A DNA stretch of 64,000 nt, from contig NZ_CP076060.1 in assembly GCF_018729255.1 (NCBI RefSeq), positions 1,612,001 through 1,676,000 on the forward strand. The letters are read 5' to 3'. The position numbers and the translations under genes were made by a program. Positions 36,632 to 57,379 of this stretch are shown one piece after another. The number at the start of each line of letters is the position of its first letter. Positions within the stretch are counted from its first letter, which is position 1. The notes under the pieces are model-generated. The model worked only from the letters and a program-made list of their open reading frames with translations. It was not told where the DNA came from and did no database searches. Origin of the DNA: Cupriavidus sp. EM10. Its GTDB lineage: Bacteria; Pseudomonadota; Gammaproteobacteria; Burkholderiales; Burkholderiaceae.

Positions 36632-36635
36632 GCAT

Positions 36636-39246: not shown

Positions 39247-39359
39247 TGCAGAGCCTTCCGCGCCATCAGGTATTTGCCGACACGGATCATCAGCAGACCG
39301 ACCGCGCCTAGCACCACACCCGCACCGACCACCACGCCACAAACAAATTCCGCAGCCAT
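39243..39359 (-). CDS. Tiny phage membrane protein (38 residues)
   Basis: MAAEFVCGVVVGAGVVLGAV then a single basic tail (RVGKYLMARKALQ). One membrane helix. Its ATG overlaps the stop of the 79-residue gene (TGATG) and its stop overlaps the zot start (ATGA). Both couplings argue that it is translated. Confidence 0.6.
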   Translation of the reverse strand: MAAEFVCGVVVGAGVVLGAVGLLMIRVGKYLMARKALQ

Positions 39360-39598
39360 CATTCCCCCTTAGAGAACGTCAGCAGAGCGCCGACGAAGAT
39401 CAACAGCAGCCCAACGAGCAACAGACTCCCGCCGAGCGTTTGGTACGAGACGCACCACGATGTGCCGGTCTGTTGATCGATCATGAACAGCCCGCGATTC
39501 ACGCGGCATGCCTGGGCGGCCTTCAGCAAGTAATCCGCGAGCAGCACACACACAGCAGCGAGCACAGCAACGCGAATGGCGATCTTTCCTCTTTCCAT
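39359..39598 (-). CDS. Small phage membrane protein (79 residues)
   Basis: Two membrane helices, IAIRVAVLAAVCVLLADYLL and GGSLLLVGLLLIFVGALLTF, with a short loop holding two Cys. 10 bases after the pVI-like gene. Probably a minor virion or assembly component. Confidence 0.6.
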   Translation of the reverse strand: MERGKIAIRVAVLAAVCVLLADYLLKAAQACRVNRGLFMIDQQTGTSWCVSYQTLGGSLLLVGLLLIFVGALLTFSKGE

Positions 39599-39608
39599 TT
39601 TTGACCCC

Positions 39609-39947
39609 TCACACCATCTTGATCAGTTGATCGAGAATCTTTTTCTTCCACACGTACAACGATGCGCCGGTGGCCACCGCGAGCCAGCACGAAATAGAGA
39701 TCATCGTGACGCCGTTGAACACAAGCCCCCAGCCCATTTTGAAGAACGGGCCGAGCGTGCTACCCAACGGGGCCGAAGGCACGCACGAATTGATGCACGT
39801 CATCACCAGCGAGTAGGTAGCGAACAGCAGCCCGAGCGTGATAGCCACGATGGCAAGAACCCACGCCTTTTTGATGTCGAAAAATTTCAGGAAGACTTTG
39901 ACCAGAAAGTCAAAGAGCATCAGCAGCAGACCGGAGAGGATTGGCAT
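39609..39947 (-). CDS. Minor coat protein, pVI-like
   Basis: Start at MPILSGLLLMLFDFLVKVFL (39947). 112 residues with three membrane helices (the second AWVLAIVAITLGLLFATYSL, the third TMISISCWLAVATGASLYVW) and a Lys-rich end. This size, layout and position between the attachment protein and the pI/Zot ATPase match gene VI of filamentous phages. It follows the attachment gene by 2 bases. Confidence 0.7.
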   Translation of the reverse strand: MPILSGLLLMLFDFLVKVFLKFFDIKKAWVLAIVAITLGLLFATYSLVMTCINSCVPSAPLGSTLGPFFKMGWGLVFNGVTMISISCWLAVATGASLYVWKKKILDQLIKMV

Positions 39948-39949
39948 CG

Positions 39950-41455
39950 TTACACCTTCACAGCTTCGCGCACGACTTGCACAGAATCGACCAGGACATA
40001 CAGCGCCACGCCGAACGCCATTACATCCTTCAGCAGGTAGTAGTAGGTACAGATATCGACGGGCAACATGCCGCCCGCCACGCCCGGAATCTGCGGGTTC
40101 TCGCACGTCTCGCTGGCAAAAGTGGGGAAGACGTTGAACAGCGAAAAGATGTGCACGCTGTCGTGCTTCTGATCGACCGTAGACAGCGTATCGTTCGCGG
40201 CCTGCTGCACGCCCGAGAGCCGCGAATCCATATCCGCTGATCGTTGCTGCAATTCGGTATCCACATCGGACTGCGTCCGCGTGCCGGTTTCGTCGATCTT
40301 GCACGCTGGCTTATTCGGGAGGCCACACGTTTCTACCTCGACCTTGGCGGGCTCTTGCCCTTTCGCTGGCGCGCCCGATTCCGTGGTTGTTTCCTGAGTC
40401 TTTGTCCCGTCTGGATTGGTAGTGGTAGTGGTGCAAGTCCGCGCTACGGACAAGGGACTTTCTTTTGACGATGATGTGTCCGAATTCGGCGTAGCGGTGT
40501 AGGTGCAAGTGGTCTGCTTCTTTGTGGTCTTGCCATCGGCCGTCGTGCTGGTTTCCGGCCCAACATCCGTCACCGTACCCGAACCGATCAACTCAGCCGT
40601 TTGCGCCAATGCATCCGCCCACTCTTGATTCTTCTGCGTCTGGTCTTCGAACCCATAGACCTGCTCTTGGACATACGGGTTGCCCTTTAGGCCGTTCTTC
40701 CACGCTTCGAGAATGTCCGCAGCCGTCGCAGGCACCAAGTCAGCAGGAGGCGGGTTCTGGACAGTTTGAGGAAAGAAGAAAATGTAGTAGCCAGCCGCCG
40801 CCGGGTTACAAATGCCATCAGCCGTCAGGGTCGAACCGTTATAGCCCGCCGGCGGCGTGATCTGCCCCGGTGGCTTACCTGTCGCTGTGTACCAACCCCA
40901 GAGCTTGTTACCGCTATAGGTGAAGTAGCCGTATGTGCTCTGATCTCTCGCAAGATCGGCGCACTTCAGATTCGTCGACGACCCCGGCTGGCCACTCCGC
41001 TTGCACCATGTGCCATCAAGGCACTTTTCCAAGCCGTAGTTGATCAGCAGCGACGCACCAATTGTCGCCATAGCCGGAAGGGAAACCGCACGAGCAGCGA
41101 GCGCCGCCACGTCCATCAAACGCTTTTCCTTCAGCGCGATTGTGCCGATCCTGCGTCCACCATTGAGGATGTCCATCGTGCTGTTCGAATTCATCTGCAG
41201 CCCCGAGGCACTGCCAGCCACCACGCGAGACATCGTGCGCTGATAGCTATAGTCCGCCTGGGCGGCGCCTGAGAGTTGCGCATACGCCGGAGCCACCACC
41301 AGAAGCGACGCGAGCACAGAAACCAGCATCAGCACCGGAGCCATCAGCAGATCAAACACGATCCAAGGGAGCGCCAGCACGCGAGATAGTGAGCCGGATG
41401 GGGCAGGGAGGCGCCGCAGGATCGCGAGCAAGAGAGATGAGGGGAGTGGGCGCAT
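39950..41455 (-). CDS. Phage attachment protein (pIII/TspB-like)
   Basis: 501 residues. Signal segment LVSVLASLLVVAPAYAQ (about 43-59). A cysteine-containing N-terminal domain (about 60-230) is followed by a Thr/Ser/Lys/Glu-rich linker (residues 300-370, for example TTTTTNPDGTKTQETTTES). A second Cys domain and a C-terminal membrane anchor (LLKDVMAFGVALYVLVDSVQ) end the protein. This is the pIII layout; the TspB-like family in Neisseria prophages is built the same way. It should bind the host pilus or receptor. Confidence 0.78.
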   Translation of the reverse strand: MRPLPSSLLLAILRRLPAPSGSLSRVLALPWIVFDLLMAPVLMLVSVLASLLVVAPAYAQLSGAAQADYSYQRTMSRVVAGSASGLQMNSNSTMDILNGGRRIGTIALKEKRLMDVAALAARAVSLPAMATIGASLLINYGLEKCLDGTWCKRSGQPGSSTNLKCADLARDQSTYGYFTYSGNKLWGWYTATGKPPGQITPPAGYNGSTLTADGICNPAAAGYYIFFFPQTVQNPPPADLVPATAADILEAWKNGLKGNPYVQEQVYGFEDQTQKNQEWADALAQTAELIGSGTVTDVGPETSTTADGKTTKKQTTCTYTATPNSDTSSSKESPLSVARTCTTTTTNPDGTKTQETTTESGAPAKGQEPAKVEVETCGLPNKPACKIDETGTRTQSDVDTELQQRSADMDSRLSGVQQAANDTLSTVDQKHDSVHIFSLFNVFPTFASETCENPQIPGVAGGMLPVDICTYYYLLKDVMAFGVALYVLVDSVQVVREAVKV

Positions 41456-41886
41456 ATGAAAGTGAAATCGTTTGTGCCAAACGATTCCCCTTTCACATGC
41501 TGTCGGGCCGCGTCAGCGAGGGAATCGGGACCCTTGTGGTGTTCGCATACGGCTGTGAAATCGTTTGTGCCAAACGATTCCGCATCCGTACGCTGTGATG
41601 CGCTGCCAGCACTGGCCGGCTGAGGCTGTGCTTAGGGGTGAAGAATCAATTGTTCCAATTGATTCCCCACCCCTAAGCACGGTCTGCGGTCCTAGCGGAC
41701 TGCGGTGGGAGGCATGTGGATATATGGACAGCCCTACGGGTTCGCCGCTCTTCGGCCTATGGACAACGGGTGGAAAACGATACTGCCGTTTCCCACCCGT
41801 TGCCCACAGGCACGCGGCCTGCCCACATACCCACAAGCCGCGACAAGCTGGGGTTGAGATATCGCTTTGACCCGCAACCCTTGCTG
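41456..41886. promoter_or_regulatory. Phage intergenic region with packaging and origin hairpins
   Basis: No gene was found in these 431 bases. At least five hairpins are present. AATCGTTTG/CAAACGATT occurs twice (41466-41486 and 41559-41579) within a 27-base direct repeat. A long one at 41628-41680 has a 13-bp outer stem (GTGCTTAGGGGTG) and a 9-bp inner stem. Another at 41764-41802 has a 10-bp stem plus 5 bp. GGGTTG (41851) faces CAACCC (41875). Filamentous phages hold the packaging signal and replication origins in such a region. Confidence 0.75.
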
Positions 41887-42036
41887 TCAGCGATGGCCCG
41901 GCAATCGCGTACTTGAGAACGCGCACCAGTCCATAGGCTGGCAGGCGATCCGGTCCGCCTGGGCATCCAGCACCGTGCCGCACGCCGTGAGGCAGAGCAC
42001 GAGCCCCGCGAGCAGCGCGACACGGTAGGCCCGCAT
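41887..42036 (-). CDS. Tiny phage lipoprotein (49 residues)
   Basis: MRAYRVALLAGLVLCLTACG is a full signal peptide with lipobox LTAC. The mature part of about 30 residues has two further Cys. It begins 3 bases after the coat gene stop, so it belongs to the same operon. It could be exported to the envelope. A role in superinfection exclusion or extrusion is a guess. Confidence 0.6.
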   Translation of the reverse strand: MRAYRVALLAGLVLCLTACGTVLDAQADRIACQPMDWCAFSSTRLPGHR

Positions 42037-42039
42037 GGC

Positions 42040-42294
42040 TTACTTCGCCTTGCCGAAGGCCTTTTTCATCATGGCGATGCCCCACCATGCGCCAGCCGCG
42101 ATCACCGCCACCGACAGCGCAGCCGTGGTGTAGGTCGTCACCTTGGCCGACAGACCGTTGATGGCGTCCAGACCCGGATCGCCGGAGCTTTGCGCCATCG
42201 CTTGACCAGCCATCAGAGCCGTACCCACAGCCACAGCGCCGATACGCGCCGACTTTTGCTTGGCCGCGATGGCCAGTTGCTTCACCTTGTGCAT
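42040..42294 (-). CDS. Major coat protein (pVIII-like)
   Basis: Start MHKVKQLAIAAKQK (42294) has GGGAG 5 bases upstream. 84 residues: a basic signal peptide ending GQAMAQS (about 35), a short acidic head (SSGDPGLDAINGL), one membrane helix (AALSVAVIAAGAWWGIAMM) and a basic C-terminus (KKAFGKAK) that would contact DNA. This is the classical pVIII pattern. Confidence 0.88.
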   Translation of the reverse strand: MHKVKQLAIAAKQKSARIGAVAVGTALMAGQAMAQSSGDPGLDAINGLSAKVTTYTTAALSVAVIAAGAWWGIAMMKKAFGKAK

Positions 42295-42346
42295 ATGCAC
42301 TCCCGTCATTGGAAACGGTGGAGAGGGTCCACCAGCCCTTACAGCC

Positions 42347-42448
42347 TCAATCCAGCACTTCGAATGCCCGAGTTGCTGTCCTGATCCAGAAGCCCGAGGC
42401 GTATCCCATCCCCCACGCCATCAGGCAAAACCCAATCACCGCTGTCAT
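42347..42448 (-). CDS. Tiny phage membrane protein (33 residues)
   Basis: MTAVIGFCLMAWGMGYASGF, one membrane helix, then a short basic tail. Its ATG overlaps the stop of the 39-residue gene (ATGA). It lies just upstream of the coat gene, where gene VII/IX type minor coat genes are found. Confidence 0.5.
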   Translation of the reverse strand: MTAVIGFCLMAWGMGYASGFWIRTATRAFEVLD

Positions 42449-42564
42449 AGCGACCCCGTTATGTCGTTCCAGAGCTTCACCACCAGCGCCAGCCCTACGC
42501 GATACAGCACCGCCAGCAGCACGTATGCCCACCAGTTCGCGAAGAGGCTACCTAAGGCGTCCAC
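42445..42564 (-). CDS. Tiny phage membrane protein (39 residues, GTG start)
   Basis: VDALGSLFANWWAYVLLAVL, with one helix continuing to LALVVKLWNDITGSL. No ATG is available in frame, so a GTG at 42564 is used. It overlaps the upstream 29-residue gene by 17 bases and the downstream gene by 4. Confidence 0.45.
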   Translation of the reverse strand: MDALGSLFANWWAYVLLAVLYRVGLALVVKLWNDITGSL

Positions 42565-42637
42565 CGATGAACCCCGCCGCGAACATCAGACACAGCACGC
42601 AATAAAAGAGCAGTTGCCCGTTTTCCAGTCCGTACAT
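42548..42637 (-). CDS. Tiny phage membrane protein (29 residues)
   Basis: MYGLENGQLLFYCVLCLMFA with GFIGGRLR at the end, one helix. ATG overlaps the previous stop (TGATG). Size and context are like pVII or pIX. Confidence 0.5.
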   Translation of the reverse strand: MYGLENGQLLFYCVLCLMFAAGFIGGRLR

Positions 42638-42750
42638 CACGACCCCCACACATCCCCGAGCATTTCAGATGCCATCCAGTCCGCCGCCCGTATGCCCAGG
42701 CGTACTGCGACCGTGACCCCAAAAACCACACACAGCGTTAGCGCCAGCAT
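42637..42750 (-). CDS. Tiny phage membrane protein (37 residues)
   Basis: MLALTLCVVFGVTVAVRLGI followed by an acidic end. ATG overlaps the previous stop (TGATG) and its own stop overlaps the next ATG. Confidence 0.5.
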   Translation of the reverse strand: MLALTLCVVFGVTVAVRLGIRAADWMASEMLGDVWGS

Positions 42751-42914
42751 CACAGCCCCCGCTTGAGGCCCCGAAGCATCACCACGCTCGCCACCACAAC
42801 GCCCACCACCAGCAGCACGCACAGCGCCATCTCTACATTCGGGTCAAGGGGAGGGGACGGCTTCGAATCCGCACCAGCCCAGTAACCGATCAACAGCCCG
42901 ATCAAGAAATCCAT
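42750..42914 (-). CDS. Small phage membrane protein (54 residues)
   Basis: MDFLIGLLIGYWAGADSKPS, a proline-rich loop, then a second helix (MALCVLLVVGVVVASVVML) and a basic tail. First of the ladder of overlapping tiny genes between ssb and coat. Confidence 0.55.
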   Translation of the reverse strand: MDFLIGLLIGYWAGADSKPSPPLDPNVEMALCVLLVVGVVVASVVMLRGLKRGL

Positions 42915-42996
42915 AACGACCCCTCGTTTACGAAAAATTGGCCGTCTTTCCGGCCTGTCACCCGCAAATCATCGTTGCAGGACACGAGGGGTTTTC

Positions 42997-43308
42997 TTAC
43001 GCTGCGGCTGTGGCCGGAGTCTTCGCGTTTGCCGCCGGACGACCGAACGGCACCAGCGCAACGACACGGAAATCGAGGTTGCCGTTGCCATCGGCAAAGG
43101 GAGCCAATTCCGTGATGTATTCACCCGGCTGGGTGTTCTTCATGTGTTCAGGCACCTTGAGGCGAGCCACGAACACGTCTTCGATCATCTTGCCGTCCTC
43201 TTCGCGAGCAGACGTGACCAGCATTTGCGCCGAATAGGTAGTGCCCGACTTGCCATCGAACGACCAGTCCTTGCGGTTGATCACAAAAACTTGTGCCTTG
43301 AATTTCAT
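42997..43308 (-). CDS. ssDNA-binding protein (pV-like)
   Basis: 103 residues beginning MKFKAQVFVINRKDWSFDGK. A small beta-barrel pattern (YSAQMLVTSAREEDGKMIED, then FVARLKVPEH) fits the inovirus pV type of single-strand-binding protein, which coats phage DNA before packaging and limits replication. An Ala-rich tail ends it. First gene of the leftward operon. Confidence 0.72.
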   Translation of the reverse strand: MKFKAQVFVINRKDWSFDGKSGTTYSAQMLVTSAREEDGKMIEDVFVARLKVPEHMKNTQPGEYITELAPFADGNGNLDFRVVALVPFGRPAANAKTPATAAA

Positions 43309-43375
43309 GGTTTCCCCTCGTTACGTTTTGACACCCGGCCATCCCGGGCCACGGTTTACGCGGCGTTGTTAACCG

Positions 43376-43445
43376 CCTACACTTGCGGTGAAGCATCTCA
43401 CCCTGCGACATGTCACATCTCGTGAACTGTCACAACAAGTGTAGG
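43376..43445. promoter_or_regulatory. Phage control region between ssb and repressor
   Basis: CCTACACTTG (43376-43385) is repeated inverted as CAAGTGTAGG (43436-43445). Between them lie GGTGA/TCACC (43387) and two direct TGTCAC copies (43411, 43429). These are likely operators controlling both divergent promoters. Confidence 0.6.
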
Positions 43446-43454
43446 AGTCACAGA

Positions 43455-43742
43455 ATGAGAAGTACAATCGAAATTCTTGATCGGGCGAAGGGTGCCAATA
43501 GTGATTATTGGGTCGCTCAACAAGTGGGCTCGAAACCCAACGTGGTAAGCATGTGGCGCAAGCGCGGACATGTCGGCCCGGACGCGATCATCAAGCTTTG
43601 CGAAATGGCGAAGGTGCCTGTAGCCAAAGGGCTAGCGCTTTGCGCATGGGAGACGGTGAGCGATCCCGAGTTGCGCGCCAAGGTGGAACACGCAGTGTCT
43701 TTTAATAAGGCCCGCAGAGCCAAGAAACTGAGCTTCGCGTAA
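43455..43742 (+). CDS. Phage repressor-like HTH protein
   Basis: ATG at 43455 behind TAGGAG. 95 residues. The helix-turn-helix is YWVAQQVGSKPNVVSMWRKR (about 19-38), then PDAIIKLCEMAKVPVAKGLA. Divergent from ssb and the structural operon, so it probably represses lytic expression. It is close to attR. Confidence 0.75.
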   Translation: MRSTIEILDRAKGANSDYWVAQQVGSKPNVVSMWRKRGHVGPDAIIKLCEMAKVPVAKGLALCAWETVSDPELRAKVEHAVSFNKARRAKKLSFA

Positions 43743-43758
43743 GCGAGGCTTGCCCTGC

Positions 43759-43790
43759 GGGCTGGCTGATTCCTGGGGATCAGTCAGCCC
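43759..43790. terminator. Hairpin after the phage repressor
   Basis: GGGCTG-G-CTGAT pairs with ATCAG-T-CAGCCC (12 bp with one G-T pair) around an 8-base loop. No T run follows. Confidence 0.5.
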
Positions 43791-43794
43791 AGAC

Positions 43795-43822
43795 AATGCG
43801 TATAATCTATCTTATGTTAAAT
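43795..43822 (+). repeat. Right attachment site (dif-like, attR)
   Basis: Phage-side XerC-like arm AATGCGTATAA, centre TCTATC, and XerD arm TTATGTTAAAT, which is identical to the E. coli dif XerD arm. Taking the XerC arm of attL and the XerD arm of attR rebuilds a near-perfect host dif site. Confidence 0.88.
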
Positions 43823-44042
43823 ATGTGAACCACCAATTTTCCCGCATTCCCCCTCTGAGTCGAAAGACGCAAAACTATGTTTGATCGCGACGTAAATACG
43901 TGTCCGAATGCTCTTCGGCTCATACGCGCCAAAACAAACATACTTTTTCATTTGCATCCCTTACTGCCCACAGTTTTGTTATCGGCCGAATGCCTTCGAC
44001 CCGTGCGATGATGTCCAACGCATACGTGCCGCAGGAGTTTAC

Positions 44043-45133
44043 ATGGCCGCTCAAGAAGATGGGCTAAGCATCTCACCGTTTCCTTCTTCCCTGAGGGATC
44101 TCCGAACTCTATGCCAACCAGGGCATCCTTGCGATCCCGTCGATCGCGCTTTACATGATGGCGCGTATCAGGAGCTGGGGACTGTACTGCAGTGGCTGTC
44201 TGGATTTGCTACCCATGCTACGGAGCGTGCCTATGAGAAGGAAGTCCATAGGTTTTACTGCTGGGCGCTCTTCATCGATCGAAAGCTGTTGGCCGAAATC
44301 ACCCCGTCAGACCTAGACTTCTATGATGCATTTCTCCGGGATCCTCCAGACTCCTGGTGCGGAATGCGCAATCGGCGTCGTACTGCCGGAGATTGGCGGC
44401 CGTTCGAGGGAGCTTTGTCGGACGCGAGCTGCTCATTCGCATTTCGCGTCTTGGAAAGTTTATTTTCGTTTCTGGTCGATTTCCGGCACATCCAATATAA
44501 CCTCTTCCGCGAGCGACGAATCCGTCGGAAGAAAAGTGCCATGGGATCCACAAAGCCCTCGAGATCCCTGCCCCTTTTGTCGTTTGTTCGATTACTCCGA
44601 GAGCTCGAGTTAGAGTGCGAGAAGTTTCCAGTCGGACATCCAGCGCATGACGAGGCCGAGCGGATGCTCTTCGTAATTCGGTTCATGGGAAACACTGGCA
44701 TCCGCGGGGAGGAGTTGGCCTGTATCCGCCTGTCCGATTTGTTTTGCTACAAGTCACCAAGCTCCGGAGATGAAACGTGGTCGCTTTCTTTAAGGAACGC
44801 GAGCGGGCAGCAGGCAAGGAAGATTGTCCTGAATCCTTCGGCCAAGTATGCCATTTACAGATACTTGGCGGCACGTGGTATCCACATTCCTCCTCCTCCG
44901 TCAGCAACGCCCTTGGTATCCCGGCTCCACGGAGACGAGCAAGCTGTTCCTTTAGGCCGGGACTCAATCTATGGAATAGTAAAAAACGCCGTGAACCTCG
45001 TTGCCGACAGGATCGAACACAAAATCCGGATGAAGCTGCCCGTTTTAGGAAGGCAACTCCCCATTGGTTGAGGGTCACGTATCGTCGAATGAACGTAGAT
45101 TCTCGGCAAATGTCTACGCAATCCCAAGGATGA
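44043..45133 (+). pseudogene. Decayed tyrosine recombinase
   Basis: Core-binding region: TERAYEKEVHRFYCWALFID, then DWRPFEGALSDASCSFAFRV, which resembles the intact recombinase at 60342. The first catalytic Arg is in GNTGIRGEELACIRL. A frame change near CCC 45039-45041 leads to KATPHWLRVTYRRM (HxxR), and the frame stops soon after at 45133. The second His/Trp and the catalytic Tyr are missing, so it is inactive even if the frame change is an undercall. It sits directly outside attR. Confidence 0.7.
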
Positions 45134-45508
45134 GTGCTTAGCTTACGGCATATCGGCACCGCTGCACCCGCCCAGGGCACCACCATTCGGCATATGGATA
45201 CGCGAATAGTCTCGGCATCGTTGTCACTGGCTGGGTTACCGGCTATACGAGCCTGTGGAGTGTTGTGCCGCCGCCAACTAGCGCTGAATCTGAAAATCCT
45301 CTAACTGCTATTTCTCGTTCACACATCGCGCCACGCTCGAGTGCTCAGGTTCGCCTTCAGCGCAATTCTGAGCCATAGAGACGAACAAAAGCCCGCTTGC
45401 GCGGGCTTTTGGCGGCCACCAATGAGACATTGGGGTGGCCTCGTAGGCTAGGCCTGCTTCCATTATGCCATCGCGAAGCAGGGCTTCATCTATCTCGCAG
45501 ACGGGGGC
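45134..45508. other. Relic region without a supported gene
   Basis: It follows the dead recombinase. Only a terminator hairpin is recognisable: AAAAGCCCGC pairs perfectly with GCGGGCTTTT around TTGC (45387-45410). No intact gene ends there today. Confidence 0.55.
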
Positions 45509-45600
45509 AGATTCCAACTGCCGCCGATAGCCTGAAGATGGGCCGCACTGCCAAGGCAGCCAATTGCCTGGCGGTCACGGCAAAGCGTCGGTGGACGCGA
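45509..45600 (+). pseudogene. Fragment of a D-Ala-D-Ala carboxypeptidase gene
   Basis: About 70 bases (45527-45596) match 52562-52632 at roughly 90%, covering the KTG-motif region. Here it reads LKMGRTAKAANCLAVTAKR; the intact gene reads LKTGHTAKAGYCLAVTAKR. KTG has become KMG and the rest of the gene is missing. The following 257 bases, to 45857, hold nothing recognised. Confidence 0.7.
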
Positions 45601-45857
45601 GCAGAACGCTTATGATTGACTACTAGCCACGCATTGCTGCCACGATATCAGCGGATTGCCAAATGCACGTGCGTCATTCATGCGCAACGTATAGGTGATG
45701 CGACGAAAGCTGGCCTGCCCTGCCCTACGCGTTGACCCGTCGCCGTCCTATTAGCTTGCCGTTGCCGGTGACACCGTGACGTTTGTGAGCGCTTTCGCAT
45801 TTGGCTGATGAACGACGAAGCCGGTTCTGCAATAGAGCGCTCCGATCGCGGGCGGCT

Positions 45858-48800
45858 CTATCGCGCCGCCCTCCCGGCCAATGCAATTCCCGTTTCTAAG
45901 CCATGCTCCAGCACGTTGAGAAATTCAGCCTTGTCTTCCCTGGGAATCTCTCGTGTAGCGGGATACGGCGAGGTATAAGCAAACAACATGTCCGCTACTT
46001 GCCGCAACCATCGGGCAAAGCCCTCGCGCATTCCTGTGACGTTATCCTTTCTGCGAAACAAGCCATTGGCGATAAATTTCACGAACTCTACAACTGCGCC
46101 GTACTGCATGGACACGTTTGGCATTCCTTGAATCAGGTCGCGCGCTAGGCCGATCGCGTACCGGCGATTGAGCGCGGTTGCGAGGTGGGTGGCAACAAAT
46201 TCAAGCGTCCGCGCCGCCATCTGCGGCTGCTGGAGTCCCCAAAAGACGTCATCTGCATGAAGGGCGAAAACGGTGCGATTGTGCAGCGCCGAGTTGAGGG
46301 CGAACTCTGCGTGATCACCACGTGAGATCTTGCCGTCCTGCAAGCCCTTCATCGCCACGAGATAGGGGAACACACCCTTGATACCAAACACTCCATAGAC
46401 CCAGTTCCTAAGGCGTTCATCCACCGAGAACAAGGCTGCCCCCTTTTCGAGGCACAACGCGAGCGCGTCATAGGTATCTGTATCGAGAAGATCCTTTAGA
46501 AGGATGAGTTCGTGAGGCATTTGCTCCGGCCCATACACCGGGCAAACTTCGCAGTGTTCGTCCATTAGCCTCAATGCTTCGGTATATTGGCTTGCCTTCC
46601 ACTTGCGAGCCTCTTCCGTGATAGGCAAGAATGCGAACTGCCCATCTATATCGGCCGCATGTCCCTCTGCGCGAGAATCCAACGCCTCGACTTCCGCTTG
46701 TTTGAATCGATCGTAGGTCCCCGGCAAACATACACCCGTGGCAACACTGAGAGAAGATCACCCTGTCCAAAGCGGACAAGTTCAGCCAGCGTGAGCGCGT
46801 CCATCACAACGGGGAACGATTGGTCGAGCAACAATGCACTTGCGGCCTCAAGCTCTGGCGCTGTGGTGACACCACTTGCGAGCGGAGGGTTGCGCTGGTC
46901 CCAACTGAAGACCATTTGCATGCCGTCGGCGCCGAGCATTTGCGCACACAAGCCAAGCGGAAGCTTGCTCTCGGCGTATTGCTCCATTACCGATTTGCTA
47001 CGTTGCGTTTGCGCCTTGAGTCGGTCATGGATGGGCGAGACATCCAGGTTCCCATCCTCTTTCTCGGTCAGGCTGAAGAGCTGCAGACCAGGCGCGGGTT
47101 CTAGCGATTTCGACAAGAGTTCGTGCGCGTACTCGCCCAGTCCTTGATGAGCATCACTGATCTCACGAATCGTGAAATTGCGAACATCGAACGTTCCCTC
47201 GATGTCAACGGTGTCGCCGCATGCCAGTCCTAGCATCGTTTTCGCCAGCGGGCTGTCCGCAGCAAGGAATCTCGCAGATTTCGGCAGATCCGTCATGCCT
47301 GCAGGATCGATCACGATTTTTACGATGCTCCTGTCCGCGCCCTCAAGCGTCACCATGGAGCCAGGCCTCACCTCCGGAAAGTGTGTTCTACCGTGTCTGG
47401 CTCGGTGACCGATCAAAACTCCCATTAGATAGGAGGAGGCGGCACTGACGTCGTCCATGTTCGAGCGGAACATGCGATAAAGCCGCGCGTACCCGACCTC
47501 TGGCTTGCCATACTGCAACTCTGCCGCCGCCAAGTGCGCGATCTGCTTCAGGGTCCCCGTAAGACGCTCGGGCGCCTCGCTGAAGGCGTTTCGGATTTGT
47601 GCGGGTGGTCTGGTATGAAGAACAACTTGGTACCAAAAGACCCATGCTTCCGCCCGCTCTGGATGGGCCTCGCGATGCAGTCTCGCAAGCAGTTCGAGCT
47701 GGCTCCAGTCATTGGCTTCTTGTGCGACGCCCATCGCTAGGCGGCGGAAGGCGTCATCTGAAAGCCATTCGGGTGGCACTTTTTCCAGGAGGTCTTTTGA
47801 CTTTCGCCGGTACCCACCAAACAATAGGGCACGCAGTCGTCGCGTCTGAATTGGTAGGCTGCGGCCGCTGGGGTCCACCGACTCCAAGAGGCCGACGGCG
47901 TCGGAGAACTGATCGGCGCGAATCAAAATATCCGCGACGATCAGACGCTCGCGCGAACTCGAATGGGTGGAGACTCGCTTCTTTATGACCTCGACAAACC
48001 GGAGCGCTTCGCTGTCACGGCCGGCATTGAGCATCAGCCCCGCAAAGGCGCTGAGTGTAATCAGATCAAGGCCATCAGCGGGCGTCTCACTGACTTCCTT
48101 GACCACCTTTTCGGATTGGCCGGAGTTGCACGCGCACACCATTTCAAGCAGCTTGACAACCGGTTTCTCGTCCGGCGCATGCTCGCGCAATGCGTGAGTG
48201 ATGCGAGCAAATGCCTCGGACTCGCCTCGGTTTGCGGCCGTTTCGGCCGCAAGGAGCAATCCGTCTTCGTCCAGCGCATTGAGGTGGGCTATGGAAAATT
48301 TAACAAGATCCTCGTGCCGGCGGAGGAAGAGCAAGGATCCGATGTGTAGGGCGGCCACGTTATCGGCATACTCAGGAATTTCCGTTTCGATTCGCTCGCA
48401 TATGGCGAGCGCCACGCCAGGCTTGCCGGTTAGCATGTGGGCAAGCGCCACGTGCGAGGCAGCTTCGGCCCTGTGCTGGCTATTTTCGATCCGCCATAGT
48501 TCTGTTGCCGCAGGCTCGAACGCGGCGATTACCTCATCGAGACCCTCACGCAAATCTTCGGCGTAGGCGTCGAAGTCCGCGGAAATCCCGTCCTTTCCTG
48601 CGACGCTAACGATGATGCCTGCGGCCCCTTTGCGGGTGAAAAGGCCTGCATCCTTTGCGCGTAAAGCTCGCCGTGCGTAGGTTACCGCCAAGTCGCTCTG
48701 TTGCCGATAAAAGGCGTAGGCCATCATTTGCAGCGCATCTGCTTCTTCTCTGAAGCGCGCCGGCAATTCGGCTTCCGTCAAGTCCTCGTTCTCGCAGATT

Positions 48801-49747
48801 CGAGCATTGGTAGCCGCTAGCCAAACATGGAGCGAAAGCGGGAATAGGCCTAGCAGGCGTGCCCCTTCAGCGTTGGCAAGCTTGAGGTCTCCCTGGATGA
48901 TATGCGCTCGGATTTTGTTAGCGGCGATGCGCTCGTCATCCCAAAACAGGTCATAGGCACGTAGAAACCACTCAGCAGCGACCTCCTCACGATTCTGTTG
49001 CCAGTGTGCAATGCCATTCTGAAGAGTCCAGCGCGCCTTCTGATGTCTGTCGAAGCTCGCGATCTCGGTTTCGAGAGTGGCAAGCAACTCCTGCGCAGCC
49101 TGAAATTTCAGGCCGCGCAGCAGGTCGTTCACCTTGTCAAGCTGCCTCGTCACAAGCCCATTCGGTGAATCTGTCCGACCTGTAGGCAACATCTGCAATA
49201 GTGCCGCCTTGAATGTTGCTTCCATCGTCGCAGGCATGGCAGCGATCTGCGCCCCAGTCCTTTCTCCCTGCTCACGTAGCACCGCAATGGCACCGCCCGC
49301 GCTGTTTGGGGAGTATTTCGGATGCAATGCGTCGTATCGTTGGATGTGGTTGCATATCTCGGTCCACGATTCCACTTCGACCAAGAATTGGCCATTGGCC
49401 TGCCGAAGGTCGCTGACTTCCTGTGCGTGCTTGACGAGCGCCGTGTCGCTTGCAGCTGTCGTGGCAATTATGAGGCGGACAATCTTCCAACCCGCCGCGT
49501 CGGCCGCGGCAACCTCATCATCAATTGTCTTGGTGGTCACCCCGCCATCGACATACCGCTTGCACTGGATGCCAATTCGACCGGCTCTTGATGTAACGAA
49601 AATGTCTACACCGCCCTGCTTCTGCCCTGATCTGCCGTTCCTCTTTGGAGTCGGATCGTCGAACACGACACCGTAGACATCCGTGCACATGTTTTCGAAG
49701 CTGTCAGCATTCGTTGGCTTTGAGATCTCGATCTCGAACGCGCGCAT
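45858..49747 (-). CDS. Putative defence protein: PD-(D/E)XK nuclease, TPR array, GreA/B-C-like and PIN domains; split by one probable missing base
   Basis: Start MRAFEIEISKPTNADSFENM (49747) behind AAAGG. One base added at 46719-46724 (tgCCgggg) joins VYVC to PGTYDRFKQAE and gives 1296 residues. Residues about 14-110 look like a restriction-type nuclease: GGVDIFVTSRAGRIGIQCKR has the D-x(n)-QxK signature. About 190-780 is helical TPR-like repeat. About 793-865 resembles the GreA/GreB C-terminal domain (GSMVTLEGADRS, then DSPLAKTMLGLACGDTVDI). About 977-1125 is PIN-like (FPVVMDALTLAEL, then YDALALCLEKGAALFSVDER). It is alone, between a dead recombinase and a LysR gene. Function in phage defence is inferred. 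Confidence 0.65.
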
Positions 49748-49863
49748 TCTGTAGGCCTTTCTAGTTCTGTGTCGACGGATGACCCTTGCAACCATTCCGC
49801 GGTCATTGCTTCCCCGCATTCTGCCAACAGGTCCCAGCGACTCCCCTTCCCTTCGCCGCTTGT

Positions 49864-50799
49864 TCAGACTGGAGCATCATCTTCGACGTGTTCACACGAT
49901 GAAGTATTGTCCAATGACTGCCACAGGTCTTGCAGCGTAGGGTTGGCGTTGGCAATCGCCCGGTAGCACCTGATTTCCAATTGAGCAGTCCAGGTGTCGT
50001 GGCCCGCCTGGACGAGGCGTCCCGCTGCGATCTCCTCCGCAACCGCGCTTACCGGTAACCACGCAACGCCGTATCGCTCGACCACCATCTTCATCAGCAA
50101 CATCGCCATGTCCGCCTCGTAGCAGCTACGCAGATGGTACGGTGCGTCGGCGCTGTTCAAGATCATATCGACAACGCGTCCCATGAATGTCGTGGCCGTG
50201 TACGCGAGGTACGGGAGCGGAGCGTCGGTCGTGCCCGGCAGCGAAAAGATCGGTTTGCCGCGGTCGTCTGGCGCAGATACAGGGATGAAATCCTCATGGC
50301 CTAACGTGATGCCGGCGAACTTGTCGCGGTCGAGCAGGATCGGCACGAGTGGATGGTGATAGCCGATCATCAAGTCGCAACTGCCTTCAGCCAATGCGAC
50401 GACGGCATCGTGAACGTTCGCTGCGACGACTCGCGCATTGAAATCACCGGTTTGTTGGTGGAACTGCTTCAACCACCTTGGCAAGAACGTCAACGAGAGC
50501 GTATGGCCGGCGGCGATCTGGATGGAACGGCCTGGCATCTTTGCCTCCTGGCGCAGTTCCGAACGCAGTTCCGTAATGGCACCGACGGATTCTTTGCTTT
50601 GCTCGCAGAACCTGCGGCCAGCAGGCGTCAATTCGACCGGGTAGGTGCCTCGGTCTACCAATTCGACGCCAACCCAATCTTCCAGCGACTTTACGCGTCG
50701 AGAAAGTGCTGATTGCGTAACAAATCGGAGCTCTGAGGCCCGGGAGAAGCTGTGCGTCTGTTCGATCGCCAAAAGATCTTCGATCCACTTCAGTTGCAT
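49864..50799 (-). CDS. LysR-family regulator
   Basis: 311 residues. Helix-turn-helix: LLAIEQTHSFSRASELRFVT and QSALSRRVKSLEDWVGV (residues 9-45). The effector domain starts RSIQIAAGHTLSLTF. It is divergent from the aspA/racemase chimera. A perfect dyad in the gap fits a LysR box. In related bacteria such a regulator accompanies aspartate ammonia-lyase and racemase genes; that association is from memory. Confidence 0.92.
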   Translation of the reverse strand: MQLKWIEDLLAIEQTHSFSRASELRFVTQSALSRRVKSLEDWVGVELVDRGTYPVELTPAGRRFCEQSKESVGAITELRSELRQEAKMPGRSIQIAAGHTLSLTFLPRWLKQFHQQTGDFNARVVAANVHDAVVALAEGSCDLMIGYHHPLVPILLDRDKFAGITLGHEDFIPVSAPDDRGKPIFSLPGTTDAPLPYLAYTATTFMGRVVDMILNSADAPYHLRSCYEADMAMLLMKMVVERYGVAWLPVSAVAEEIAAGRLVQAGHDTWTAQLEIRCYRAIANANPTLQDLWQSLDNTSSCEHVEDDAPV

Positions 50800-50949
50800 T
50801 TGGCACCTCTTTGCCGCTGAGGGTCACACGTACCCAAGTGGGCAGCCGAACGCCCACGTAAACCCCATGTATGGACCGAAAACGCAAGAAATAAGCGAAT
50901 CCTGATCATCAAAGTACAGCATAAAGTGCGCTATGTGGCGCTCCAAGCA

Positions 50950-50974
50950 AAACTATTCTGGTATGGAATAGTTT
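50950..50974. promoter_or_regulatory. LysR-type operator
   Basis: Perfect 9-bp arms AAACTATTC and GAATAGTTT across TGGTATG, containing a T-N11-A core. It lies between the divergent LysR and aspA' genes. Confidence 0.7.
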
Positions 50975-51054
50975 CAATTTACATCCTCATAAAGTGGATT
51001 CCATTGCGCTCCTAGAATCCGGTTGGCAAACAAGGCGCACTGATGAGGAATGCG

Positions 51055-51836
51055 ATGGCTATTCAACAAGATTTCAAGGGAACGCGGCGCGAGCATGACT
51101 TGCTTGGCTACCGCGAGGTGCCGGCAGACGCGTACTACGGCATTCATACGCTGAGGGCACTGGAGAACTTCCCGATCACTGGCGACCCAATCTCGCGTCC
51201 AAGGACCAGGATCACATTAAGATGGTCGTGGAGCAGAATCCGCAAATCCCGGATCGCACGGCAAATCTGCTGCGCCACGAAGCGGACCCGACAGTTGCAC
51301 TCTACGCAACCTGCAAACGTCTGGAATCTGAGGGGGCAAACGCCATTGCGATCCCCTGCAATACCGCCCATGCGTATGTTGAGCGGATTCAGCCGCATCT
51401 CTCGATTCCGATCGTCAACATGCTGACGGAAACCATCGGACACATCGTCGGCAAGTATGGAAAGGGAACGAAAGTTGGACTTCTTGCGACGTCGGGCACG
51501 GTGGAGAGTCGGGTATATCACGATGCTGCCGCAGGGCAGCTAGAACTGATCACACCGTCGCCCGACTTCCAGGCGATGGTGATGGAGGCAATCTATGGCC
51601 CGACAGGCGTGAAGGCTGGCTACACGCAGGGGCACTGTGCAGCGTCGCTTCGGGCAGCCATCGAGCACCTCCAAAATAAGGGTGCGCAAGTCCAGATCCT
51701 CGGCTGCACCGAACTCCCGCTCGTTTTCTCGCAGACCGACAGCTTCCCGGTCGGAAGCGCGAGCGTCGCACTAGTGGACCCAACTGATGTCCTTGCAAAA
51801 CGGTGCGTCCAGCTAGCGTCCTCCGCCCAGGCGTAG
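51055..51836 (+). pseudogene. Deletion chimera: aspartate ammonia-lyase 5' end joined to aspartate-racemase 3' part
   Basis: The first 45-50 codons ([20 protein letters not shown], then [12 protein letters not shown]) are the N-terminus of aspartase AspA. Near 51186-51195 the sequence becomes an Asp/Glu racemase: [20 protein letters not shown], with both catalytic cysteines in IPCNTAHAY and ILGCTELPLV. The racemase lacks its first 60 or so residues. As given, the two parts are in different frames; one extra C at CCC 51186-51188 would fuse them into 260 residues. Aspartase activity is lost and racemase activity is doubtful. Confidence 0.75.
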
Positions 51837-51899
51837 TCACCTACACAATGCTCTCCTCGAGGCGGCCTCACGCCTCGGCCCACGCACGACAGTTCATTG

Positions 51900-52738
51900 A
51901 TGCCTTTTTTGCGCTTCACTCGTTTTCTTGCCGCCTCGGCATTTGCTTTCGGCGCCCTCCCCTCCCCGCAACGGCCGCGCAGGCTCCACAGATTGCAGCA
52001 CGCTCTTACATTTTGCTCGACAGCGGCTCGCATCGCGTCATGCTCGAGAAGAATGCTGACGAGCGTCTACAGCCCGCGTCGCTAACTAAAATGATGACAG
52101 CCTACGTCGTGCTTGACGCCCTGAAGGCGAGCACGATCAAGTGGGAACAGTTGGTGCGTGTGGAGGCCAGCGACCTTGCTCATGTGGGCGGCGACGAGGC
52201 AACCATGCGCCTCCAGGCCGGCCAGATCATCAGCATTCAGGACCTACTGACGGGTCTCATTGTTGTCTCAGCAAACGATGCGGCAATGGTCCTGGCCCGT
52301 ACGGTCGCCGGGTCGGAGGACGCATTTCTAGGGAAAATGAACGATTACGCCAATCGTCTAGGGCTGAGTGCCAGTCACTTCGCCACCCCTTCCGGCATTA
52401 CCACGCCAAACCACTACTCGACTGCCCGAGACATTGCCCACCTGTCGGTGCGCTTGACGGAGGATTTTCCGGTCTACCTGGCCTTCTCCGCTCAGCGGGA
52501 TTTCAGCTATGGCAGCTTCACCAGACACAACAAGAATCGGCTGCTGGACGATCCAACTATCGATGGCCTGAAGACGGGCCATACTGCCAAGGCAGGCTAT
52601 TGCCTGGCGGTCACGGCAAAGCGCTCGGTGGCCAAGGGCAAAGCGATGCGACGTGTTTTCGCTGTGGTTCTCGGCGCACCCTCCAACGATGGGCGCTTCG
52701 TCGCGGGCAGGCAACTGATCGATTACGGCTTTCATTGA
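51900..52738 (+). CDS. D-alanyl-D-alanine carboxypeptidase/endopeptidase (S11), split by one probable missing base
   Basis: ATG at 51900. The signal peptide (MPFLRFTRFLAASAFAFGAL) is in one frame and the enzyme in another. CCCC to CCCCC at 51964-51967 joins them (PSPATAAQAP), giving 279 residues. Active-site motifs are SLTK (in QPASLTKMMTAY), SAN (VVSANDAAM) and KTG (GLKTGHTAKAG). The PBP5-type C-terminal beta domain is missing, as in PBP7/PbpG. It trims peptidoglycan peptides in the periplasm. A fragment of the same gene lies at 45509-45600. Confidence 0.85.
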
Positions 52739-53377
52739 GCCCGCTGCGGCTCTGAGCCGCTCGTCGCTGGGGATGGTCAACGGCAAGCAGCGGTATAGCC
52801 CTCTGACTGCATGTTGTGCCGGCGTATGGGGCGCGCAATGCGAAGCACGAGAACTCCAGGTCGCCGTTGACGGGAGTTTGTGTAATTCCTGGCACGTTAA
52901 GACTCTCCCTCACTAGCGGGTTGACGATGCTCACCCCTGCGCTTGGCGAGCGTGATGCGAACCGGTGCCGGGGCAAACGCAGTCTCATGCCGGATGCGCT
53001 AACTCCCTTTGCCCTGCGCCCGCGCGACGTCGGCTTCGCCGGCACACTTCTCCCATACTCATTCCACCACGCTGTCAGCGCCTCCATCGTGGCCCCAAGC
53101 CGCGCGCCTTTGCCGTGATCTCGTACTCGACGCGCGGCGGCACCTCAGCAAACACCGTGCGCGATATTAGGCCATCCGCCTCCAATTCACGAAGCTGTGC
53201 CGTCAACATGTGCTGAGTGATCCCCGGTATGGCCTTGCGCAGTTCCCCAAAGCGATAGATCCGCTGGTTGAGCAGCCACATGATTTCCAGCTTCCACTTT
53301 CCCGACAGTAGCGCAAATGCCCGGCGCATTTCCTCGTGCATGTTGATCTCATCGCCGCCATTAGTCTTCTTTTCCAT
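52611..53377 (-). CDS. HxlR-family regulator, split by one probable missing base, with abnormal C-terminal extension
   Basis: Start MEKKTNGGDEINMHEEM (53377). The HxlR winged helix is clear: LLSGKWKLEIMWLLNQRIYR, GITQHMLTAQLRELEADGLI. One G added in the run at 53093-53096 (plus-strand CCCC) restores the usual ending GATMEALTAWWNEYG. Beyond that the frame stays open for about 150 unrelated residues and runs antisense into the carboxypeptidase end. The native stop was probably lost, or a second error hides it. It is divergent from the DoxX/SDR genes it may control. Confidence 0.65.
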
Positions 53378-53469
53378 ACTAACCACCAGTTTTCATCCTA
53401 CTTGCTGACTTTTAGCTTAGACGACATTCTGTTGCGTGTCGATGCAATCCCCCAGCTTTAGGAAACCTC

Positions 53470-53873
53470 ATGACTCAAAGTTACGTGTACTGGATCAGCA
53501 CGGCGCTGCTCTCCTTGCTCTATCTCGCTTCCGCGACGATGTATTTAGCCAAACGGGCTTGGGTTGTCCAGGCACTTACAGACCTTGGCTATCCCGGCTA
53601 TCTCGTACCGTTTCTCACTGCGGTAAAGCTCCTGGGCGTGGCCGCCATTTTGGCGCGCGTCAGCGCGCCGCTAAGCGACCTGGCCTACGCCGGCATGTTT
53701 TATCACCTGCTGCTGTCTGGTTTGGCTCACCTTGGCGTCCGTGAACTGAGAGGTGCGCTGCCTGCGGTAGTCGGCGTTGTGCTGCTCGTTTCGTCGTTCG
53801 CAACACAGAACATCGCTCGCGAGACCCCGTCCCCTACGCTCCATTTGCGGAGCGCCAAACATCCCTCAACTAA
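53470..53873 (+). CDS. DoxX-like membrane protein, split by one probable missing base
   Basis: MTQSYVYWISTALLSLLYLA, four membrane helices, DoxX-like pattern (FLTAVKLLGVAAILA; MFYHLLLSGLAHLGV). CCCC to CCCCC at 53831-53834 gives the natural end SPYAPFAERQTSLN and 134 residues, stopping 12 bases before the SDR gene. Proteins like this often pair with HxlR regulators and redox enzymes, as here. Confidence 0.75.
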
Positions 53874-53885
53874 CGGAGATCAACC

Positions 53886-54616
53886 ATGGCTCGACTCAAC
53901 GGAAAAGTCGCGATCATCACTGGTGCCAGCCGCGGCATCGCAAAACTGTTTGCCGCAGAAGGCGCCAAAGTGGCCGTTCTTTCGCGCACCCTGGCCAATG
54001 TGGATGCGGTCGTTGCCGACATTCGCGCTGATGGCGGAACGGCAATCGGCGCGCTTTGCGACATCGCCAATGCCGGCGAGATTAAGGCAGCGGTGGATAA
54101 AGTCGTCGCTACCTATGGCGGGATCGACATCCTCGTCAACAATGCCTTCGACTCATCCGCGCCGTTCTCTTCCATTACCGATCTGTCGACGGAACAGTTG
54201 CAGCGCAATTTCGAGATGGGACCGATTGCGTATCTGCGGACGATGCAGGCGGCGTACCCCTACCTCAAGGCGAGCGGTGAAGGACGTGTCATCAACTTCG
54301 GCTCAATGGCTGGTGTCCTGGGCTTGGTGGGATATGGTCCGTACAACATGGCCAAAGAGGCAGTGCGCGCTCTCACCCGCACCGCTGCCCGTGAGTGGGG
54401 CCCCGACAAGATCACGGTGAATAATGTACTGCCGGTGGCCGAGACATGGGGTCCGGAAACCAACGTCCCTCCGCCGACCAACCCGCTCGGCCGCTATGGT
54501 TCGCCGGAAGACGATATTGCGCCTGTCGTCCTGTTCTTGGCGAGTAAGGATGCCCAGTTTTTGACCGGATACAGCCTTACCCCGACGGCGGCTCGATCAT
54601 CGACAGCGCTCGATAG
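53886..54616 (+). CDS. Short-chain dehydrogenase with damaged glycine motif, split by one probable missing base
   Basis: MARLNGKVAIITGASRGIAK: the usual SDR sequence continues GRAIAKLF after RGI, so four residues (12 bases) including the third glycine of TGxxxGxG are missing. Later motifs are normal: ILVNNAF, active-site Ser in FGSMAG and YNMAK. Near the end CCCC to CCCCC at 54580-54583 restores the common ending GYSLTPDGGSIIDSAR and a stop at 54616 (243 residues). Cofactor binding is probably impaired. Downstream of DoxX. Confidence 0.75.
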
Positions 54617-54714
54617 CTCGGAGCAACTGTCCGTGGTTCGAACACGTATGCAATGCTATCAAATTTGATCGGGCCACTAGCACCTGAGGCTGTGAAGCGG
54701 CAATTGAGAGAGAG

Positions 54715-55352
54715 ATGAAAGTTACCCTTTTCGGAGCGACCGGGAAACCGGGCCATCCCTTGTAAACGAGGGCCTGCAGCGCGGCTTCGAACTCACCGTC
54801 TTTGCACGTTCCAGCAGTAAGTTTGAGAACGCCAATGTGCAGATTGTCCGAGGCGAGTTTACCGATATTGACTTGTTGCGAGACGCAATCCGTGGATCAG
54901 ATGCGGTGCTTTCGGCGCTGGGCCCTGCCAGGCAGCCACACCCGAAAGGTATGCCAATCACTACGGCGACCCGGGCAATCATCTCAGCGATGGAACGCGA
55001 GCAGGTGAAGCGGTTCATCGCGGTCTCGACCGGGACAGCCGCTGATCCTGGCGATGATTTCGACCTCAAGATCTGGCTGCCTGCCGCAATCATCAAGTTC
55101 GCGATGCCAAGTGCTTACGAAGATATGATCGGACTTGCAAGAGCGATCCGTATCTCGTCGCTTGATTGGACAATGGTTCGAGCGGCTGTATTGAAGAATC
55201 GCCACGCCGCGGAGCAACTCAACGTCGGCTTGTATGGTCACGCCAAGCATTCGCTGACGGTCGCCCGTGAAGACTTGGCCAAATTCATGTTTGATCAAAT
55301 TGCGAACCACGATTTCGTTCGCCGGGCTCCCGGAATCAGCACCCGACAATGA
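54715..55352 (+). CDS. NmrA-like NAD(P)-binding oxidoreductase, split by one probable missing base
   Basis: It begins MKVTLFGATGK; one base added at GGGAAACC (54742-54749) gives GATGKTGPSLVNEGLQRGFE, the Rossmann GxxGxxG motif. The rest (VQIVRGEFTDIDLLRDAIRG, AVLSALGPA, and FIAVSTGTAADPGDD) matches atypical SDR/NmrA-type proteins that sense or reduce. 212 residues. Last of the HxlR-linked cluster. Confidence 0.7.
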
Positions 55353-55610
55353 CTTCGGGGAGGAGACCGCTAAGCGCTTAACTGCCCGGCCCAGTGTTCA
55401 TGAACGCTGATTTTCCGTCCTGCTTACAAAGCGGTAAAACACATCGATTTCCGGGACTGTTGGGAGTTGCACCGCCTTTCAGTCACGAACTGGACTCTCG
55501 GCGCATGAATGATGAGCGACCAAGAGTGTCGTACGGGACGGCGGCATTTGACGTCGGTGAAGGGCGCCTCCTACGGCCGTTCTCGTCAGTCCACAGCGCT
55601 GCCTCGAACT

Positions 55611-56340
55611 CTAATGGATGGCCTCGGCACGCAGCAGCTTCCACGTGCCAATTTGGTGGTCGAATACGGCCCCATCGGGAGCCACCGCAGATCGCACATC
55701 CCAAAATTGATACCGGTCTGCCTTCCCGCCGATGGCGATAGTTTGTCCGCGGGCAATGCTCGCGCCCTTCACCAACAAATGCCGGGTAATGATTCCGACA
55801 ACATTCGCACAGTTTGGGATTTCGGCCGGGGCACTGACTTCCTTCATCCCAAAATTATGCATACCGCAACTATAGGCACCGCTGCCGGCCCCATCGACCG
55901 TCACGACAAACGCCCGAAGAATCCCATCGACGCCCTCGCTCGCGAAGTCCAGCCATTTTTGCGGCGTATGGGCAATGCCGACGTGCTCGACGAGCACACC
56001 CAGCGCCCCAGCTTGAACCACAGCGCTTGCCGCAGCCATCAGATGCATCATCCGATGCAAACTGCCCCCGCGCCCTTGATAATGACGCACGACGCGTGCT
56101 GCCTCACTGCACGCATCTCGCTGGTGTCGTGCCAGTGCAGACCAAAACACCAAAAATCCAGCACGGTATTCCTACGACGTCCTTTCCGAAACTCGATGAG
56201 GACGCTCTCCCCGTGTGCAAATCCGTGAGCATGCCGTCAACAAGACGATACTTTGGCGCTTGAGAACTTAGCGCGGATAGAAATTCGGCACGGGAGACCC
56301 ACGCGCCCGGAAGGGAAAGAACAACGAGAGAGTTTTGCAT
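55611..56340 (-). pseudogene. DUF4261-like gene with a frame change
   Basis: N-terminal part MQNSLVVLSLPGAWVSRAEF to about 56110, then another frame with ALGVLVEHVGIAHTPQKWLD, MHNFGMKEVSAPAEI and KGASIARGQTIAIGG, which recall the DUF4261 family. Unlike the other split genes, joining needs one base removed or two added, so genuine decay is more likely. Function unknown. Confidence 0.45.
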
Positions 56341-57022: not shown

Positions 57023-57050
57023 GGTACCCTCCCAGCAACTCGAAACCGTC

Positions 57051-57374: not shown

Positions 57375-57379
57375 GGTGT

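Follow-up and report, generated by a model that had tools for sequence, protein, structure and literature searches.

Kaur et al. (2021; PMC8195603) predicted that proteins built on a TPR-GreA/B-C-PIN core constitute a conflict system with swappable N-terminal effectors, and the available part of that paper lists 13 interchangeable effectors, a restriction endonuclease (REase) among them. The gene described here encodes a protein of this class and lies on the minus strand at 45751..49747 of a 64,000-nucleotide window (the whole stretch of DNA that was analysed, positions 1,612,001 to 1,676,000 of contig NZ_CP076060.1 from Cupriavidus sp. EM10). It shares with the proteins portrayed in the available text of PMC8195603 the order of the (here putative) TPR, GreA/B-C and PIN domains, the REase effector and the habit of occurring mostly as a standalone gene; no difference in architecture was found relative to that text, and what distinguishes the present case is carriage by a Tn7-like element. 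A preliminary description of this DNA had supposed that the full architecture with its N-terminal nuclease may be new, which was mistaken because the published core already comes with an REase effector and the window protein has the sequence features that were tested, the TPR array being a probable one. The protein is real, is intact in relatives and is a further member of a published, predicted class, its architecture being already in print; what is apparently new is its vehicle, a Tn7-like transposon adjacent to dif. Sequence comparison, from which all of this derives, provides the domains with their conserved catalytic residues, the intact copies, the transposon ends with their duplications and spacing from dif, and the defence neighbours of homologues. 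No experiments on this architecture were found in the literature searched.

Transposition near a site-specific recombination site is familiar from the Tn5053 family of "res site hunters", which transpose near plasmid res sites bound by resolvases; the difference is that the site here is dif, at which XerCD acts. Insertion sequences of the IS1202 family occur beside dif and pdif, and in the available text of the paper that describes them (PMC10132070) they are 1.5 kb long and sit 5 bp from the XerC site, whereas the element reported here is Tn7-like, measures 75 kb or more and lies 32-47 bp away on the XerD side. Another known system for comparison is Tn6022, whose TnsF targets comM via TniQ and has lost its catalytic pocket (Faure et al. 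2023, PMC10293859). Like Tn6022, the present element is Tn7-like, with a predicted TniQ and a probable derivative of a tyrosine recombinase without a catalytic pocket, the fold being assigned here by sequence similarity. In PMC10293859, TnsF shares an operon with tniQ, bears zinc fingers at its N-terminus and serves a comM target, whereas our recombinase gene lies opposite tniQ and the target is dif in seven of seven copies. A Tn7-like element at dif was not found in print, in a search of literature that lacked most subscription journals; the whole word "dif" is absent from PMC10293859, PMC8649781 and PMC11406308, and "Tn7-like" is named in a reference title in the part of PMC12907356 that was available. 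We therefore describe dif only as apparently a new target for Tn7-like transposition.

The domain assignments draw on profile searches with the two pieces into which the window letters split the gene, and on predicted structures of intact relatives. Pfam family PF20698 ("PIN-TPR-GreABC") scores 45.7 bits in the second piece, over a cut-off of 27.8, and 66.2 bits in three intact copies, and the first piece has matches below cut-off to GreA_GreB, Mrr_cat, Mrr_cat_2 and TPR_16. The chain, encoded throughout on the minus strand, begins with a PD-(D/E)XK (Mrr/REase-like) nuclease (residues 13-145; 49313..49711) in which Asp48 (49604-49606) and Gln61-x-Lys63 (49559-49567) are invariant. Predicted structures of intact relatives support its REase fold; a PDB profile search with the nuclease alignment returned a sole match, to an outer membrane lipoprotein at E 0.076. 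After a putative helical TPR array (about residues 187-759; 47471..49189) comes a GreA/GreB C-terminal, RNA-polymerase-docking domain (residues 792-864; 47156..47374), with no match to the Gre N-terminal domain, and then a PIN nuclease (about residues 976-1138; 46335..46822) with invariant Asp983 (46799-46801) and Asp1110 (46419-46421) and a frame gap inside it. In intact relatives both of the latter domains are supported by profile comparison with the PDB and by predicted structure, the GreA/B-C domain matching Gfh1/GreB well (Gfh1 at 2.2e-4 by profile), and the PIN part matching RNA-free RNase P proteins by profile (7og5, 1.6e-3). The chain ends in a C-terminal helical region of no named family (45751..46334), in which the low confidence of AlphaFold2 model m532ad130b03f is confined to the last 13 residues.

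The catalytic residues of the two nucleases are invariant in 25 of 25 and 35 of 35 aligned relatives, the latter count applying to the two PIN aspartates and including ten members that lack the REase. These ten come from the 39 homologue loci, where no match to the N-terminal REase region was found in 10, and their own N-termini gave no Pfam match at E 0.05. The four domains named in the preliminary description, REase, TPR array, GreA/B-C and PIN, are real, the TPR array probably so, and profiles together with the predicted structures of intact relatives back the three globular ones. For the TPR-like array the evidence is the TPR_16 match in the window piece (0.0035, below cut-off) and precomputed annotation, which assigns a TPR family to 21 of 55 homologues. 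NCBIfam searches of the window pieces gave sub-threshold Gre-type families and GapS6b only. GAPS6b belongs to a two-gene system, and membership in that family was rejected: its model (NF047936) matches the C-terminal piece in the PIN region only, at E 0.0013 and 16.6 bits, far under the cut-off of 850 bits, and when 274 genomes of the class were searched for the family, 22 had weak matches, none of which passed the cut-off.

As cargo, the gene sits close to the left end of its element, a transposon that the preliminary description had not recognized and whose left 20 kb occupies 43858..64000 of the window. The left tip reads AGTC..., the target duplication CTCTG stands directly outside it, and similarity to other copies ends abruptly at 43858; rightward, the shared DNA reaches about 121727 in window-based numbering (about position 1733725 of contig C1 in the source genome, G000, a Cupriavidus assembly of 6.66 Mb in 4 contigs), giving an element of about 77.9 kb here. 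It was seen in seven Cupriavidus genomes and is 75-78 kb long, or larger in one host; the copy in genome G045 is 75,242 bp with GAACA on both flanks. Perfect 5-bp target duplications bound all seven copies, and each copy has its own: CTCTG here, CTGCT in G018, GAACA in G045, GATGC in G036, ATGCC in G042 (whose ends lie on two contigs), ACACT in G007 and TCAAC in C. campinensis MJ1. The dif site (43795..43822, plus strand; XerD arm TTATGTTAAAT at 43812-43822) is 35 bp from the left end, and the distance from dif to the same element end is 47 bp in G018, 45 in G045, 37 in both G036 and G042, 32 in G007 and 36 in MJ1, with the XerD arm facing the element in the same orientation every time. Sites resembling dif with at most three mismatches occur 14 times in 13 chosen genomes (0-2 in each; none in the control), a count that does not include the G045 site, which has four mismatches. 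The right flanks of the copies share no similarity with one another at E 1e-3, whereas around dif the left flanks have brief segments in common, with longer ones in some pairs (up to 129 bp at 73-89%). By comparison of these copies we interpret the element as a putative dif-homing Tn7-like transposon; a search for terminal repeats found no 14-mer common to both 250-bp ends with up to three mismatches.

Rightward from the left end, G000 and G045 differ by no mismatch over 63.6 kb, and since G045 is held as another species this points to a very recent transfer between the two. The copy in G018 has 117 mismatches to G000 over 62.5 kb and that in G036 has 57 over 56.3 kb. In G007 the left 8 kb are the same and the same TnsB stands 111 kb away, so its cargo differs. 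Judged by eye, the cargo of the G045 element, about 6-68 kb from the left end, seems to be catabolic (open reading frames, ORFs, that are P450-, dehydrogenase-, CoA-transferase- and TctC-like). The site dif occurs in most bacteria with circular chromosomes. If the interpretation is correct, a Tn7-like element that finds dif would represent a new homing strategy, dif would give large elements a safe and near-universal home at the replication terminus, and such homing would offer a starting point for inserting large DNA at a defined position with no need of a guide RNA.

Four genes at the far end of the element, of 204, 681, 343 and 442 amino acids, are read as TnsA-TnsB-TnsC-TniQ. The third matches AAA_22 at 30.1 bits (cut-off 27) and the fourth matches TniQ (PF06527) at 2.2e-4 and 22.3 bits, below a cut-off of 27. 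The same four genes stand in the same order in eight other loci of Cupriavidus and its family (tblastn), and all seven aligned TnsB proteins keep a D, a DN and an E, which we take to be the DDE transposase motif. Weighing against this reading, TnsA and TnsB had no Pfam or NCBIfam match and TnsB had none in the PDB. Further TnsB relatives at about 40% identity occur in G010, G044 (two copies), G055 and, as a second one, G018; four of their contigs have no dif-like site with up to three mismatches and the fifth has one 119 kb away, but the far ends of these elements were not located, so they neither support nor refute homing to dif.

How dif would be recognized is a separate matter, for which the first gene inside the left end offers a candidate. 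This gene (43908..45141, plus strand) begins 50 bp inside the dif-facing end, with tniQ at the opposite end, and encodes an Xer-type tyrosine recombinase of 411 amino acids in intact copies. It has no Pfam match and an NCBIfam XerA match (0.0033) far below cut-off, and it is 30-38% identical to others. Aligned with four relatives it lacks the stretch bearing the catalytic tyrosine, which three of the four keep. The preliminary description had called this neighbour a dead recombinase; the window copy is split by two homopolymer gaps, and elsewhere the gene is a single frame of 411 amino acids, although the catalytic tyrosine is indeed absent. By analogy with TnsF, we infer that the tyrosine-less recombinase is a candidate target selector that would read dif. 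We offer only tentatively, and at somewhat less than even confidence, the larger proposal that a Tn7-like family recruited a dead Xer-type recombinase as its dif-reading selector, spreads nearly unchanged among Cupriavidus species, and carries beside that end a defence protein that would combine two nucleases with docking on RNA polymerase.

The main alternative is that TniQ needs no partner to recognize dif, or the complex of XerCD with dif, and that the recombinase is unrelated cargo, a reading we regard as a real possibility without considering it the probable one. PMC10293859, as far as its available text goes, takes TniQ/TnsD proteins of more than 400 amino acids in dual loci as likely direct selectors, and TniQ here, at 442 amino acids, could read dif by itself. 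Several observations count in the same direction and against a selector role for the recombinase. Its gene lies opposite tniQ; in G018 an insertion of about 1.3 kb disrupts it (about 2494290-2495615 of G018:C1); its family is found in 179 of 299 family genomes at 1e-15, so that presence of the gene proves nothing because such recombinases are common; and the case for the role consists of the position of the gene and the loss of the tyrosine. Against TniQ acting alone stand the start of the recombinase gene only 50 bp inside the dif-facing end, the loss of the catalytic stretch as in TnsF, and a locus in genome G027 where two such recombinases accompany a related tns operon, with dif within 20 kb.

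Turning to the protein that the element carries, its role in conflict, probably against phage, is the best prediction because defence genes lie near homologues and because of the published prediction; to this extent the proposal of an anti-phage or conflict function made in the preliminary description stands. We scanned the neighbours of 35 of the 39 homologue loci, leaving out a short contig and three Cupriavidus copies that are nearly identical, and took up to two ORFs per side, dropping those over 900 amino acids, for a total of 124 (the end of one gene being approximate). In these ORFs PADLOC found matches to 151 models at 1e-5. The 25 matches listed, which have no control set beside them, include the DRT reverse transcriptases Drt4 (1e-218) and Drt6, a CBASS-type oligonucleotide cyclase and 2TM effector, a type I methyltransferase, QatD, HEC-05, PD-T7-5, ThsB, a dGTPase, bSEFIR (2 ORFs) and mad2 (2 ORFs), so that defence genes are present beside homologues. 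The gene is mostly standalone, no Pfam family recurring in more than three of the 124 neighbour ORFs. The protein matched 53 plasmid records, the match extending across more than 80% of the protein in 2 of these, and gave one weak partial match among phage records; a PADLOC scan of the window pieces themselves showed nothing convincing.

We think it fairly probable that the protein, a member of the TPR-GreA/B-C-PIN class, acts against phage as sensor and effector in one chain, and that it is carried as cargo by a Tn7-like transposon homing to dif. According to this model, in which we infer every functional step from the trigger through polymerase docking to both cleavages, the protein most likely waits in an autoinhibited state until its TPR scaffold detects infection or engages a partner. 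The GreA/B-C domain would then dock at the secondary channel of RNA polymerase, on the beta' coiled coil. The PIN domain would cleave RNA at the polymerase or close to it, while DNA would be cut by the PD-(D/E)XK nuclease of the N-terminus, so that the phage is stopped or the cell killed. The element itself would reach dif via TnsA-TnsB-TnsC-TniQ, perhaps with the tyrosine-less Xer-type recombinase as dif reader. Some points weigh against this model: docking to RNA polymerase is proposed by analogy, the defence neighbours were counted without a control, and the closest neighbours in the window, a LysR regulator and ORFs of metabolic appearance, are not defence genes. Because it represents a predicted immune class with one intact gene, available as identical copies in named strains, the protein makes the idea of RNA-polymerase docking directly testable.

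Two other divisions of labour among the domains deserve attention. The N-terminal nuclease could be the main effector and the GreA/B-C and PIN half the sensor, riding RNA polymerase, detecting a polymerase that a phage has stalled or reprogrammed, and triggering degradation of DNA, which proteins of the Avs4 type carry out with their own N-terminal nuclease. We consider this unlikely. The invariance of both PIN aspartates in all 35 aligned members suggests that PIN catalysis is probably needed. Moreover, Avs4 (PDB 8dgf), a STAND-type sensor with an N-terminal nuclease, carries an ATPase, whereas the Pfam search of the window pieces reported no STAND-type sensor domain and, at E up to 1, no ATPase family. 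The other possibility is that the PIN domain, once activated, cuts tRNA or rRNA, with GreA/B-C serving as just a regulatory or folding module and RNA polymerase uninvolved. RNA-free RNase P proteins, which the PIN profile matches, act on pre-tRNA, and VapC-type PIN toxins act on tRNA, both of which favour such a target. It is nonetheless doubtful that GreA/B-C is so dispensable to the mechanism, for the domain is constant in the published core as given in the available text of PMC8195603 and matches Gfh1/GreB well here.

The window copy of the gene cannot be read as a single chain from its own letters, which on their face speak against an intact protein: they hold two overlapping minus-strand ORFs, of 1,057 amino acids (46646-49819) and 289 amino acids (45858-46727), split by a homopolymer gap in the PIN region, and a second gap near the 3' end shifts the frame again. 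When 60 Cupriavidus genomes were compared with the first piece, 11 had matches, including the source genome, some of them partial. In five of the others residues 1-1014 are 100% identical and stand within an open frame of 1,375 codons, the intact chain in relatives being 1,332 amino acids; a homologue in C. pauculus (G028) is 77% identical, its contig having no dif-like site and its genome no TnsB match. The single polypeptide proposed after frame correction is therefore borne out by an unbroken, identical gene in relatives, but its length is 1,332 residues rather than 1296 and its 3' end is at 45751 rather than 45858, the earlier end having been placed too early because of the second gap.

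Aligned with window 43858-64000, neither G042 nor G045 has a substitution, and each has 24 one-base gaps. From 44949 to 64000 G018 shows 0 substitutions and 25 gaps, one of which edges its own insertion; G036, aligned to 60185, has 3 substitutions and its own 12-base insertion besides the shared gaps; and G007, matching to 51844, has 0 substitutions and 4 gaps. Four genomes agree on 22 of the 24 gaps and three on the other 2, every gap is a base missing in the window, and all 24 sit in homopolymer runs of 3-5 equal bases. The simplest reading is that the frame break is a sequencing artefact, an uncorrected homopolymer error, because relatives without a shared substitution over 20 kb nevertheless agree on 24 such gaps. 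A programmed frameshift was ruled out, five other copies being open without one. That the gene is a pseudogene whose genuine frame break yields two inactive proteins, an outcome the preliminary description had allowed for, would explain the lack of a single open frame in the window, but the gap pattern and the five intact copies nearly refute it, and we reject it as very improbable. A density of 24 gaps per 20 kb suggests false splits in other genes of this assembly, and TnsB is split too.

On the other side of dif, and outside the transposon, lies a filamentous-phage-like prophage (36605..43822), whose phage genes were named by eye and which extends from a XerC half-site (36605-36620) to the complete dif. 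This confirms the dif/prophage boundary recognized in the preliminary description and places dif between a phage and the transposon. That XerCD recombination, as with such filamentous prophages, rather than Tn7-like transposition also put the element at dif is scarcely credible despite this neighbour, and we rejected it on the duplications and the offset, since the ends stand 32-47 bp from dif at a varying distance with a 5-bp duplication in all seven copies, and no second dif (up to five mismatches) was found in the stretches containing both ends of the window, G018 and G045 copies.

Other DNA at or near dif was also seen. In G036, G045, G055, G044 and G007, DNA akin to a transposase-like ORF that stands beside dif in G027 adjoins dif at its XerC end. 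Such a position would be consistent with the IS1202 family, which is reported to target dif (PMC10132070). The G027 locus itself (G027:C2:62984-81226; L145, L146) holds a more distant tns operon and two recombinases of the same kind, one of which retains the catalytic tyrosine motif. The most promising pair of candidate ends for its element resembled a chance match, and a search for an empty site found none. In G075:C18 (L167, L184) and G010:C171 (L185), dif-like sites occur at distances of about 0.5 kb and 9.5 kb from related recombinases of 566-570 amino acids. Finally, in 2 of the 39 homologue loci, from Massilia sp. Bi118 (L063) and Pseudomonas sp. NBRC 111124 (L076), a dif-like site with two mismatches is less than 10 kb from the gene, and a third locus (L058) has a weaker dif-like site.

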